DNA of 64,000 nt. Source: Hyphomicrobiales bacterium (GTDB lineage Bacteria; Pseudomonadota; Alphaproteobacteria; Rhizobiales; Methyloligellaceae). The translations under genes were made by a program, and so were the position numbers. Below are positions 8,250 to 15,770 of this stretch, one piece after another (within the stretch, counting starts at the first letter, position 1; every line of letters starts with the position of its first letter). The stretch spans positions 1 to 64,000 of the forward strand of contig JAJFHP010000029.1 in assembly GCA_021775555.1 (NCBI GenBank), read 5' to 3'. The notes beneath the pieces were generated by a model that made no database searches, was not told where the DNA came from, and was given only the letters and a program-made list of their open reading frames with translations.

Positions 8250-8318
8250 AGGCTCAGTGCTTAAGGTTCTGACGACTTATTGTCATTCGTTTTTACGTGT
8301 TTCCTGCTGGAGGACAAG

Positions 8319-9641
8319 ATGGCGCAACTTGCACGCCGCGCGTGGGTTCCCGAAACCTGCGAAAATTTCATTCAGGACCTTGCGCAATCCTGTGCGGAAC
8401 TGAGCCTTCAGGATATTGAGGATGAAATTTCGCGTCTCATCGAGGAAAATATCACCATCCATGAGCGCGACTGCGTGAATCTCAATCCTGCCACCAACGT
8501 TATGAACCCAAAGGCTGAGGCTGTGCTTTCAAAGGGCCTCGGCGCACGGCCCTCTCTCGGTTATCCAGGCGACAAATATGAAATGGGACTGGAAGCGATC
8601 GAGCGTATTGAAGTGATCGCGGCGGAACTGGCAGCAGAAGTGTTCGGAGCACGGTTTGCCGAAATCCGTGTTGGCTCCGGTGCCCTGGCCAATCTCTATA
8701 CCTTTATGGCGACGACGAAACCTGGCGACCCGATCATTGCCCAGTCAGCAGATATCGGGGGTCACATCACCCACCACAAGGAAGGCGCGGCCGGTCTGTA
8801 TGGCCTTGAGATTCATAACGGACCGGTGGATGCCAACAACTACACGGTTGACCTCGACGCTCTTCGCACGCTTGCCAGGCAAGTCCGTCCGAAACTCATC
8901 ACAATCGCTGGAAGCCTCAATCTAAACCCGCACCCGGTACGCAAGGTGCGCGAGATTGCAGACGAAGTTGGCGCCTGGCTGCTGTTCGATGCCGCGCATC
9001 TGTGCGGAATGATTGCCGGCCATCAATGGCAGCAACCTCTGGAAGAAGGTGCGCATCTGATGACCATGAGCACCTATAAAAGCCTCGGGGGTCCCGCGGG
9101 CGGTCTCATCCTCACCAATGAAGCAGAACTTGCCGAGCGTATCGACGCTATTGCTTACCCGGGGCTCACGGCGAATTTCGATGTGGCAAAATCAGCCGCT
9201 CTCGCCATCACAATGCTGGACTGGAAAGAGCATGGGGACGCATATGCCAAAGAAATGGGACGCTGTGCCAAAACTCTCAGCTCAGCGCTGGCGGATGAAG
9301 GCGCGCCCGTATTCGCTGCAGACAAGGGGTTCACGCAATCTCATCAATTCGCCCTTGAGGCCGCCCCTCATGGTGGTGGACAGGCGCTGGCAAAGATCCT
9401 GCGCAAGGCCAATATTCTCTCCTGTGGCATCGGACTGCCCTTGCCCGACGTTGATGGAGATGTGAACGGATTGCGGATCGGAACGCCTGAAATTGTGCGC
9501 TGGGGGATGACAGCTCACGACATGCCGGAACTCGCACAACTGATGACACGCATCATCGTACACAATGACCCCCCTGAATCAGTTGCGGGCGATGTCATGG
9601 CCTTTCGCAAACGCTTCGACACCCTAAAGTTCATCCGTTGA
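8319..9641 (+). CDS. Divergent serine hydroxymethyltransferase-family PLP enzyme, specific reaction unknown
   Basis: 440 residues with the SHMT fold. Recognisable parts are GYPGDKY (81-87), GSGALANLY (119-127), GGHITHH (147-153), FDAAHLCGMIAG (223-234, PLP aspartate 224 and histidine 227), the Schiff-base lysine 254 in STYKSLGGPAGG, and the substrate arginine 386 in GLRIGTPE. The segment equivalent to ASENYTS, which carries the catalytic glutamate of true GlyA, is NPATNVM (56-62) and has no glutamate. The tyrosine of KYAEGYPG is also absent (RPSLGYPG), and THK around the lysine is TYK. These residues serve folate-dependent chemistry, so this is probably not the housekeeping GlyA. It could be an aldolase, transaldolase or alpha-methylserine-type enzyme. 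The start is set by GGAGGA close upstream of 8319. serB follows after 16 bases, suggesting a serine- or glycine-linked role. Confidence 0.8.
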   Translation: MAQLARRAWVPETCENFIQDLAQSCAELSLQDIEDEISRLIEENITIHERDCVNLNPATNVMNPKAEAVLSKGLGARPSLGYPGDKYEMGLEAIERIEVIAAELAAEVFGARFAEIRVGSGALANLYTFMATTKPGDPIIAQSADIGGHITHHKEGAAGLYGLEIHNGPVDANNYTVDLDALRTLARQVRPKLITIAGSLNLNPHPVRKVREIADEVGAWLLFDAAHLCGMIAGHQWQQPLEEGAHLMTMSTYKSLGGPAGGLILTNEAELAERIDAIAYPGLTANFDVAKSAALAITMLDWKEHGDAYAKEMGRCAKTLSSALADEGAPVFAADKGFTQSHQFALEAAPHGGGQALAKILRKANILSCGIGLPLPDVDGDVNGLRIGTPEIVRWGMTAHDMPELAQLMTRIIVHNDPPESVAGDVMAFRKRFDTLKFIR

Positions 9642-9657
9642 AAACCAAGGTTTTTCC

Positions 9658-10557
9658 GTGACCCACGTTCTGACAATGATTGCCGGCGCTGCTGCCCAGC
9701 CCCTCGGTAAGGCCTGCATCAAGAAAGTCTGCGCCGTGCTGCCCGCATCCGGTGAAATCACTTGGCTGTCCGAGGGTGAGGCTTGCGACATTCCATTCAG
9801 GCCTGAAGAGGGAGCAACGAACGCACAGATCACTGAGCGTGTTCGAGGAACGCTGGAGAACGCGCCGGTTGATATTGTCAGCCAAGGCACTGAGAATCGA
9901 CGCAAGCACCTGCTCGTGGCGGACATGGATTCAACTTTGATCGGTCAGGAATGTATCGATGAAATCGCGGACTATGTTGGCCTCAAGCCAAAGATATCCG
10001 AGATCACCGAACGCGCTATGCGCGGCGAGCTTGAGTTTGAACCGGCATTGCGTGAGCGGGTTGCCCTGCTCAGGGGGGTTGAAGAGAAAGCGCTCCAGGA
10101 CATTTTTGACAAGCGGATAACTCTGAACCCGGGCGCCCGCACCCTCGCGTGCACCATGGGTGCGAACGGCGCCCGCTCGGTGATTGTTTCAGGCGGCTTT
10201 ACCTTCTTCACTGCCCGCGTCGCAGAGGCTGCCGGTTTTGACGCCCATCATTCCAATCTTCTAGAGATTTCAGACGGCAAACTTACGGGCAGGGTTATCG
10301 AACCCATCCTCGGTCAGCAGGCAAAGCTCGATTCGTTGCGCCAATATCGAGAGACACTCAAGCTTGATAACGCCGAGACTCTTGCCGCGGGCGATGGCGC
10401 CAATGATCTGGCAATGCTTATGGAAGCCGGCCTGGGCGTGGCCTACCACGCAAAGCCTGTTGTCGCGGCCAGGGCCGATGCCCGCATAGATAATTGCGGC
10501 CTGACCGCCCTGCTATTCGCTCAGGGCTATGCACGCGAAGACTTTGTGAATGACTAA
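9658..10557 (+). CDS. serB: Phosphoserine phosphatase
   Basis: 299 residues, HAD superfamily. It removes phosphate from O-phospho-L-serine in the last step of serine synthesis. An N-terminal regulatory-type region of about 80 residues precedes the catalytic core. Motif I is DMDST (89-93, nucleophile aspartate 89). Substrate-recognition residues lie in RAMRGELEFEPALRERV. Motif II is IVSGGFTFF, and motifs III/IV are in LAAGDGANDLAML. The start is a GTG with AAGG 7 bases upstream. It lies 16 bases after the SHMT-like gene on the same strand, probably one operon, and is convergent with the Do protease gene. Confidence 0.96.
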   Translation: MTHVLTMIAGAAAQPLGKACIKKVCAVLPASGEITWLSEGEACDIPFRPEEGATNAQITERVRGTLENAPVDIVSQGTENRRKHLLVADMDSTLIGQECIDEIADYVGLKPKISEITERAMRGELEFEPALRERVALLRGVEEKALQDIFDKRITLNPGARTLACTMGANGARSVIVSGGFTFFTARVAEAAGFDAHHSNLLEISDGKLTGRVIEPILGQQAKLDSLRQYRETLKLDNAETLAAGDGANDLAMLMEAGLGVAYHAKPVVAARADARIDNCGLTALLFAQGYAREDFVND

Positions 10558-14660: not shown

Positions 14661-15770
14661 TCAAAATGTTATGACCGAGCGGATCGATTTTCCCGCATGC
14701 ATCAGGTCAAACGCCTCGTTGATCTCATCCAGCGGCATCACATGGGTGATGAGATCATCGATGTTGATCTTGCCGTCCATGTACCAGTCGACAATCTTCG
14801 GTACATCCGTGCGCCCCCTGGCGCCTCCAAACGCCGTGCCGCGCCAGTTGCGGCCTGTTACGAGCTGGAAGGGACGGGTTGATATCTCCGCGCCCGCGGG
14901 CGCCACGCCGATGATGATCGAGGTGCCCCAGCCCTTGTGGCAGCATTCAAGCGCCTGGCGCATCACTTCCACATTGCCAATACATTCAAACGAATAATCC
15001 GCCCCGCCCCTGGTGAGGTCCACAATATAGGGCACGAGGTCTCCCTCGACCTCGGACGGGTTGACGAAATGAGTCATGCCGAACTTTTCCGCGATCGCCT
15101 TGCGTCCCGGGTTGAGATCAACGCCGACGATCATGTCCGCGCCCGCGATCCGCGCACCCTGAATGACATTGAGACCAATACCGCCAAGACCGAAGACAAC
15201 CACATTGTCGCCAGGCTTCACCTGGGCCGTATTCATGACTGCGCCCAGCCCCGTGGTAACGCCGCAGCCGATGTAGCAAATCTTCTCGAAGGGAGCATCT
15301 TCGCGCACTTTTGCGAGTGCTATCTCCGGCACGACCGTGTGATTGGCGAAGGTCGAGGTGCCCATATAGTGAAACAGCTTCTCACCGCCTGACGAGAATC
15401 GGCTTGTCCCATCAGGCATCACGCCCTGCCCCTGGGTTTCGCGGATCGCCTGGCAGAGATTTGTCTTACCCGACGTGCAATATTCGCAGGTTCGGCATTC
15501 GGGTGTGTAGAGCGGTATAACGTGATCGCCCTTTTTTAGGCTTGAGACGCCTTCGCCCACATCAACCACCACGCCTGCGCCTTCATGTCCGAGGATAGAA
15601 GGGAACAATCCTTCCGGGTCAGCGCCCGAGCGCGTAAACTCGTCTGTATGACAAACACCCGTTGCCTTGATCTCGACCAGAACCTCCCCTTTCCTGGGGC
15701 CTTCCAGATCGACATCAACTATCTCAAGAGGTTTGCCCGCCGCCGTTGCGACTGCCGCGCGTGTTTTCAT
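14661..15770 (-). CDS. Class III alcohol dehydrogenase / S-(hydroxymethyl)glutathione dehydrogenase
   Basis: 369 residues, zinc-dependent medium-chain dehydrogenase. Catalytic zinc ligands are Cys40 (GVCHTD) and His62/Glu63 (LGHEGAG). The structural zinc site has Cys92, 95, 98 and 106 ([16 protein letters not shown]). The NAD-binding motif is [20 protein letters not shown]. The sequence follows the glutathione-dependent formaldehyde dehydrogenase subfamily (for example [20 protein letters not shown] and the [16 protein letters not shown] segment). It oxidises the glutathione adduct of formaldehyde and also reduces S-nitrosoglutathione. The start at 15770 has GGAGG 8 bases upstream. It sits 71 bases after folA on the same strand, between folA and hflK, which are commonly close neighbours in related genomes. 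Confidence 0.92.

Follow-up and report, generated by a model that had tools for sequence, protein, structure and literature searches.

What does a protein of the serine hydroxymethyltransferase (SHMT) family do once the residues of its folate chemistry are gone, and what does its position beside serB mean? The question is raised by a gene in 64,000 nucleotides of DNA from a Hyphomicrobiales bacterium of the family Methyloligellaceae (GenBank assembly GCA_021775555.1, contig JAJFHP010000029.1, positions 1 to 64,000 of the forward strand), a stretch that we call the window throughout. Here, we propose, using profile searches, structure prediction, phylogeny and comparisons of gene neighborhoods, that the gene product, P0001, is a pyridoxal phosphate (PLP)-dependent, folate-independent retro-aldolase of alpha-branched serines that releases free formaldehyde and an L-amino acid, and is the counterpart of the tetrahydrofolate (THF)-dependent alpha-methylserine hydroxymethyltransferase (mSHMT), a reading to which we assign a probability of roughly two in three. 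We infer the reaction, the substrate, the L-product, the release of free formaldehyde and the use of Glu88 or a water as base from these comparisons. For the window gene itself the support consists of its residues, its place in the tree and its chromosomal slot, and the evidence from regulators, transporters and partner enzymes is contributed by members of its clade elsewhere.

Active site, fold and descent of P0001

P0001 retains the PLP apparatus of SHMT and has lost the residues around the folate-dependent step. In an alignment to GlyA of Escherichia coli MG1655, Asp224, His227, Lys254 and Arg386 of P0001 correspond to Asp200, His203, Lys229 and Arg363, and they are kept in 81/81 sequences of the clade sample, which consists of the window protein and the best 80 of at least 589 confirmed relatives and to which all counts out of 81 or 80 refer. 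From E. coli to P0001, in contrast, Ser35 has become Ala58, Glu36 Thr59, Tyr55 Pro78, Glu57 Leu80, Tyr65 Glu88, His228 Tyr253, Gln261 Thr284 and Asn347 Ile371. Pro78, Leu80, Glu88 and Tyr253 are invariant in 81/81, and since this folate-less pattern is fixed throughout the sample, P0001 is no degenerating copy. The reading frame is intact, its ATG is preceded by a Shine-Dalgarno sequence (Table 1), and the protein aligns over nearly its full length with 34 relatives at 61-78% identity.

The general base proposed for SHMT is Glu53 of the Thermus thermophilus enzyme, and Tyr61 is described as binding the substrate hydroxyl, both residues extending into the partner subunit (PMC10397204). We equate these two with E. 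coli Glu57, in the YAEGYPG motif, and Tyr65, as the offset of 4 is constant and also relates Ser31 to Ser35. A preliminary description of the gene, made from the sequence alone, had listed the kept PLP residues, the segment NPATNVM in place of ASENYTS, the missing tyrosine and the tyrosine before the Schiff-base lysine, all of which the alignment and, for the PLP residues, the conservation across the clade bear out. Its placement of the key glutamate in ASEN has to be revised, as the proposed base is instead Glu57, the counterpart of Leu80. Glu88, which stands at the place of the substrate-hydroxyl tyrosine, could be a relocated base, in a segment that is of low confidence in the monomer model.

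The fold itself is that of SHMT. P0001 scores 154 bits against the Pfam family PF00464 (cut-off 27), its AlphaFold2 model, predicted as a monomer, has a pLDDT of 91.3 with low-confidence blocks at residues 71-90 and 281-290 (mean pLDDT 58-66 per block), and the closest solved structure is the SHMT of Methanocaldococcus jannaschii (4uqv, TM 0.86 by query length), which is also its top PDB match by sequence. In the NCBIfam profile search, P0001 reaches the cut-off of 0/25 models shown: the SHMT model NF000586 gives 293 bits, below its cut-off of 335, and the second-best model, TIGR04506 for fluorothreonine transaldolase, 204 bits against a cut-off of 650. Compared with the features of an SHMT (EC 2.1.2.1), P0001 thus has the fold and the PLP-binding Asp, His, Lys and Arg, and lacks both the catalytic Glu57 with its surrounding tyrosines and histidine and an NF000586 score above cut-off.

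By descent, too, the clade is distant from GlyA. A maximum-likelihood tree calculated from 50 proteins unites the 20 clade members included in a single group (100/100) that falls on the side of the M. jannaschii SHMT and of L153 from S. cattleyicolor, which we take to be fluorothreonine transaldolase, and not on that of GlyA; the split between the two sides has 100/100 support. The exact places of the long rows L147, L153, L114 and L121, all outside the clade, are unsure, as the program flagged meetings of long branches. The mSHMT group, in contrast, nests among alphaproteobacterial GlyAs (98/93) and includes plasmid proteins of Ensifer, Shinella and Paracoccus, taken here as mSHMT, as well as a second protein of the window's own genome. 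All 8 of its rows keep Glu57 with Thr55/His65, whereas P0001 has Leu80 with Pro78 and Glu88 and so lacks the residues that define an mSHMT. The signature described for that enzyme is Thr60/His70 for Tyr55/Tyr65 (PMC6411801), and mSHMT is described as using THF (PMC7918591, PMC10848231).

This genome holds 3 PF00464 proteins. A canonical GlyA, whose presence elsewhere the preliminary description had raised as a point to check, lies on contig C16 (556 bits), and the protein on contig C6 (484 bits) keeps Glu57 and has Thr and His at the places of Tyr55 and Tyr65, the mSHMT signature; P0001 is the third. The C6 gene (C6:7681-8811, loci L002 and L148) has a divergent LysR gene beside it and a sulfatase-family gene (PF00884) directly after it.

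Table 1. Features of the P0001 locus and one more distant gene, in window coordinates.
Feature	Position	Strand	Remark
miaA	7323..8249	-	second border of the slot; name given by eye; homologues at the other loci
Leader, miaA start to P0001 ATG	8250..8318	+	Shine-Dalgarno GGAGG at 8309-8313
P0001, 440 aa, PLP enzyme of SHMT fold lacking the folate residues	8319..9641	+	predicted THF-independent aldolase of alpha-branched serines
Residues 77-90, RPSLGYPGDKYEMG	8547..8588	+	in place of the GlyA segment NKYAEGYPGKRYYGG; Tyr55 to Pro78, Glu57 to Leu80, Tyr65 to Glu88
Asp224 and His227	8988..8999	+	kept PLP-binding residues
Tyr253-Lys254	9075..9080	+	Schiff-base lysine after Tyr instead of His
Arg386	9474..9476	+	kept carboxylate-binding arginine
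serB, phosphoserine phosphatase	9658..10557	+	TIGR00338 above cut-off; 16-base gap to P0001; inherited neighbor
frmA, S-(hydroxymethyl)glutathione dehydrogenase (FrmA)	14661..15770	-	TIGR02818 above cut-off; between folA and hflK

A slot, regulators and transporters common to the clade and mSHMT

In the window the gene order is miaA(-), P0001(+), serB(+). The clade gene occupies this slot in the genus genomes G000 (that of the window), G001 and G004, and in G002, where the 3' end alone was seen, and it lies beside serB also in the family genomes G011 and G012. In the genus genomes G006 and G007 the same slot is filled by an mSHMT-like gene with Thr55/His65/Glu57, indicating that a single site has seen an exchange between enzymes of the two sides of the family. 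The leader of P0001 shares 52/67 bases with that of the G007 mSHMT gene, counted from the miaA side, and has the same GGAGGACAA end. Since miaA and serB are adjacent with the slot empty in 4/4 other-family genomes that have both together (G028, G029, G034 and G037; in G039, also of another family, serB has no miaA beside it), we conclude that the P0001 gene was inserted beside serB. The 16-base gap given in the preliminary description agrees with the coordinates, from 9641 to 9658. The functional link that it drew from this gap is weak, as serB is an inherited neighbor that follows the clade gene in 4/80 relatives (L004, L005, L006 and L012, the first three taken as the same contigs as G001, G012 and G011), and we dropped serB as a functional partner.

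Clade members elsewhere share more with mSHMT than a slot. LysR regulators of two families, A and B, stand beside the clade gene in 51/80 relatives, in 42 of them upstream and divergent, and in the other 9 up to 2.5 kb downstream and in the same orientation. As type-A query we used the LysR beside the C6 mSHMT-like gene, against 12 genomes: 9 from a set of 16 together with G036, all 10 chosen because a type-A LysR lies by their clade gene, the query's own genome G000, and G001, which has none by its clade gene. The best match was the LysR by the clade gene in 10/10 of the picked genomes, its identity being 43-55% and that of the runner-up at most 38%; in G050 one gene separates the two, and the best match in G001 reached 31%. 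The 7 genomes of the 16 outside this test include G056, whose clade gene (L032) likewise has a LysR of type A by it. The type-B LysR of the Ensifer mSHMT cluster finds matches in 2/12 genomes at E <= 1e-25, in agreement with the pairwise tables: in Dongia at 53% beside the clade gene, with a further match at 29%, and in Bosea G043 at 51% in the cluster of another folate-less SHMT (L147). In Burkholderiaceae, 12/12 loci (L115, L128-L132 and L192-L197) likewise have a type-B LysR, either adjacent to the clade gene or at the opposite end of the cluster.

All 12 of these loci carry an amino-acid ABC transporter gene in the cluster, of the LivK type in 8 and the AapJ type in 4. The AapJ of the Ensifer mSHMT cluster is 59-62% identical to those near the clade genes of L129 and L130, and 69-70% to those of L196 and L197. 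Searched against nine genomes, it matches at 59-60% next to the clade genes of G100 and G134 and at 70% in the G043 cluster, with the remaining 31 matches outside these clusters at 35-43%. The context in which mSHMT occurs does not define the enzyme, though it is telling: its slot recurs with the window gene, and its LysR regulators, as orthologues, and its AapJ subfamily recur with members of the clade elsewhere. In L129 (11350-12492, by Pfam) and L130 (11426-12568, 86% identical) the LysR adjoins a gene of the class V aminotransferase fold, which has a look-alike in L147.

The partner enzymes, in contrast, differ between the two sides. An L-serine ammonia-lyase gene lies 12-15 bases downstream of the clade gene in 3/12 Burkholderiaceae loci and is full length in L196 and L197 (TIGR00720, 711 and 698 bits, cut-off 345). 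Glutathione-formaldehyde-type genes are present in 4/12: L115 carries FrmA and S-formylglutathione hydrolase (FrmB), both above cut-off, and GFA-domain proteins occur in L131 and L132 (PF04828, 43-44 bits, cut-off 24) and in L192 (by 95% identity). FolD, PurU and D-serine ammonia-lyase were found in 0/12 of these loci, in 0/79 further clade loci with flanks of up to 6 kb, and nowhere in the 64-kb window; L-serine ammonia-lyase was likewise absent from the 79 loci and the window. At the mSHMT loci, D-serine ammonia-lyase is present in 3/3, FolD with PurU in 2/3 and L-serine ammonia-lyase in 0/3. One of these loci, L162, corresponds to plasmid p2_Teo12 of a degrader of tris(hydroxymethyl)aminomethane (TRIS), Shinella zoogloeoides; for TRIS the proposed route passes through 2-hydroxymethylserine, mSHMT and D-serine (PMC10848231).

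Proposed reaction and competing readings

How might these observations fit together? Because regulators, transporter and slot are common to both, the clade enzyme and mSHMT are likely to meet the same compounds. The loss of the folate residues, the absence of FolD and PurU, and the glutathione-formaldehyde-type genes suggest that the one-carbon unit is set free as formaldehyde, and the L-serine lyase with the clade, as opposed to the D-serine lyase with mSHMT, suggests an amino-acid product of the opposite hand. P0001 would form an external aldimine with 2-methylserine or 2-hydroxymethylserine, the bond between C-alpha and the CH2OH group would break with formaldehyde released free, and re-protonation would give L-alanine or L-serine, with Glu88 or a water standing in for Glu57 as base. 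From 2-hydroxymethylserine, with its two like hydroxymethyl arms, mSHMT would yield D-serine and the clade enzyme L-serine.

A wider proposal, which we hold with evenly balanced confidence, is a folate-free catabolism of 2-hydroxymethylserine, and also of 2-methylserine, in which an aldolase of the archaeal-type branch gives L-serine and formaldehyde, followed by L-serine ammonia-lyase and glutathione-linked formaldehyde oxidation. It would mirror the mSHMT route with its THF, D-serine, D-serine ammonia-lyase and FolD/PurU, and the exchange would be a convergent swap with mSHMT at one site, of two distant halves of the family under related regulators.

Enzymes with such an activity have been reported. 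Alpha-methylserine aldolases were reportedly described by Nozaki et al. in 2008 from Variovorax paradoxus, Ralstonia AJ110405 and Bosea AJ110407, with L-alanine as partner, and are said to be SHMT-related with a 47-kDa subunit. The activity is described in a review as PLP-dependent and THF-independent in vitro, joining formaldehyde and an amino acid to an alpha-branched serine, with D-alanine as partner (PMC7918591). A split of alpha-methylserine into alanine and formaldehyde without THF would agree with the residues and context of P0001, and P0001, set beside the published type by its description, is plausibly of that type. The preliminary description had recognized no named subfamily, which holds for the NCBIfam models, although this published activity does fit.

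Could P0001 instead act, independently of THF, as an aldolase or transaldolase on plain beta-hydroxy amino acids such as serine, threonine or phenylserine, similar to fluorothreonine transaldolase? We consider this unlikely, even though TIGR04506 is its second-best NCBIfam model and L153, on the same side of the tree and 31% identical, resembles it in its SHMT-like first domain. The TIGR04506 score lies far under cut-off, L153 keeps His228, and the second domain of fluorothreonine transaldolase, described as a two-domain protein (PMC7162832), is absent from P0001 with its 440 residues. Regulators, transporter and slot are shared with mSHMT, and no link to threonine enzymes was seen. The preliminary description had suggested a loss of folate chemistry and a possible aldol or transaldol reaction on serine, glycine or a relative; the loss and an aldol-type reaction on a relative of serine are supported by residues, context and the mSHMT swap, and the transaldol reaction found no support. 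Less probable still is a decarboxylase of alpha-branched aminomalonates such as AibC of Rhodococcus, an annotated SHMT described as lacking hydroxymethyltransferase activity and converting 2-amino-2-methylmalonate to L-alanine (PMC7782822). AibC, compared here by description, shares with our proposal an SHMT-like enzyme without the usual activity, the breakdown of an alpha-branched amino acid and an L-product, and differs in its reaction; the aib cluster is also described as hydroxylating 2-aminoisobutyrate to alpha-methylserine (PMC7782822). A 34%-identical cousin of P0001 on a plasmid of Mesorhizobium sp. B2-1-8 (L114, 8962-10266) shares Pro55, Leu57 and Tyr228. It lies in an aib-like cluster that encodes a ferredoxin, an oxidoreductase and, in parallel to AibH1H2, two proteins of the amidohydrolase family. 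DhaK, DhaL and a transporter for amino acids belong to this cluster too, which may serve the metabolism of a different alpha-branched compound. The folate-less branch is thereby tied once more to alpha-branched amino acids. Against decarboxylation, the formaldehyde-type genes and L-serine ammonia-lyase by some clade members point to formaldehyde and serine, and the clade gene exchanges with mSHMT in the same slot. No AibC candidate was found beside AibH homologues on plasmids (L155 and L177 included), and five loci with AibH-type proteins (L155-L159) have no annotated SHMT.

Readings that retain a carrier for the one-carbon unit are weaker. It is very improbable that P0001 carries out a modified SHMT reaction, with Glu88 in the role of Glu57, to serve serine and glycine supply beside serB. 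Glu88 is indeed fixed in 81/81 at the place of the substrate-hydroxyl tyrosine and serB is 16 bases away; however, Asn347, His228 and Ser35 have changed too, the position of serB is inherited, and the gene is accessory, present in 28/297 genomes of the order, whereas a PF00464 protein was found in 41/41 genomes examined. Slightly less credible again, and in our judgment the least so, is a pterin-dependent SHMT with another carrier such as tetrahydromethanopterin, a possibility raised by the grouping with the M. jannaschii SHMT at 100/100 and by the structural match to 4uqv. That enzyme, on the same tree side, keeps the SEN, YAEG and His-Lys set, with Tyr55, Glu57, His228 and Asn347, and P0001 has none of these four; a canonical GlyA is present in the genome, and FolD and PurU are beside 0/91 clade loci and absent from the window.

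Several observations weigh against a folate-independent aldolase of alpha-branched serines as well. We know of no activity for any clade member. The GFA-domain matches all come from three close relatives, and the GFA Pfam family is broad. The L-serine ammonia-lyase of L115 is cut short at 385 aa, and the searched partner enzymes are missing from the 79 other loci, whose labels are almost all alphaproteobacterial or proteobacterial, except for FrmA in L004, of the window genus. FrmA in the window was dropped as a linked gene, being a genus-wide neighbor (L134, L135, L142), including where mSHMT fills the slot (L142), and is a possible partner only. Regulatory evidence has its gaps too: 29/80 relatives have no LysR of either family beside the clade gene, 2 of these 29 for lack of sequence, no LysR or transporter gene adjoins that of P0001, and the type-A test genomes were picked, not blind. 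The mSHMT side comprises only 3 loci, hand-picked from 41 records. At the slot, the G006 leader shows 46 identities with 9 gaps, little better than those of G004 (41) and G001 (39), which carry clade genes behind longer leaders. The lost glutamate has been proposed as the base of the THF-independent reaction too (PMC10397204), so that another base must be assumed. Finally, common regulators and a common slot could mean a shared inducer and a different reaction.

Relatives, distribution and meaning for the family

Which of the known organisms might link the clade to the published aldolases? The clade gene is the sole PF00464 protein besides GlyA in 3/4 Bosea genomes, all reached through clade matches. 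The fourth, Bosea psychrotolerans G043, has besides its clade gene a second folate-less SHMT, L147 (9478-10812), with Ala55, Met57 and Gln228. Its branch in the tree is long and lies by the side of GlyA, and its gene belongs to a cluster with a type-B LysR, an AapJ-type transporter, a class V aminotransferase and an asparaginase that resembles L129 and L130. This protein is a second candidate for the published Bosea enzyme and finds a match in 4/398 Burkholderiaceae genomes, at 37-39%. Among the same 398 genomes the clade itself is present in 11, all 81-100% alike to the query, and none of these matches was tied to Variovorax or Ralstonia; 16S sequences, obtained from 3/5 genomes, are Burkholderia-like in G119 (99.7%) and match Burkholderia/Paraburkholderia at ~97% in G100 and G134. 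A very divergent SHMT-family protein with Gly57 and Asp126 was seen in G111 (L121, 1420-2742); judged by eye, the genes next to it encode a dioxygenase-like protein and an exporter of the LysE type.

The distribution of the P0001 gene is patchy, with the 28 genomes of the order that carry it falling in 23/122 genera. Some clade members are labelled far from Pseudomonadota, namely L010 (Leptolyngbya) and L058 (SAR324), which pair in the tree (99/97), and L032 (Solirubrobacterales), whose contig may be contamination. With at least 589 relatives confirmed, the clade is probably large. Our literature search, thin on subscription papers, found no description of an L-serine-forming pathway that releases formaldehyde or of the exchange with mSHMT. 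The proposed substrate 2-hydroxymethylserine is described as a building block of benzobactins (PMC10098953) and as an intermediate of TRIS degradation (PMC10848231).

In conclusion, because they match the SHMT family, clade genes are readily mistaken for those of serine hydroxymethyltransferases, and a genome would then be credited with an extra one-carbon enzyme that probably frees formaldehyde rather than loading folate. If our reading is true, it would give a function to a probably large clade and supply the other-handed half of quaternary amino acid breakdown, and the miaA-serB slot would represent a natural experiment, as two distant solutions replace each other there.

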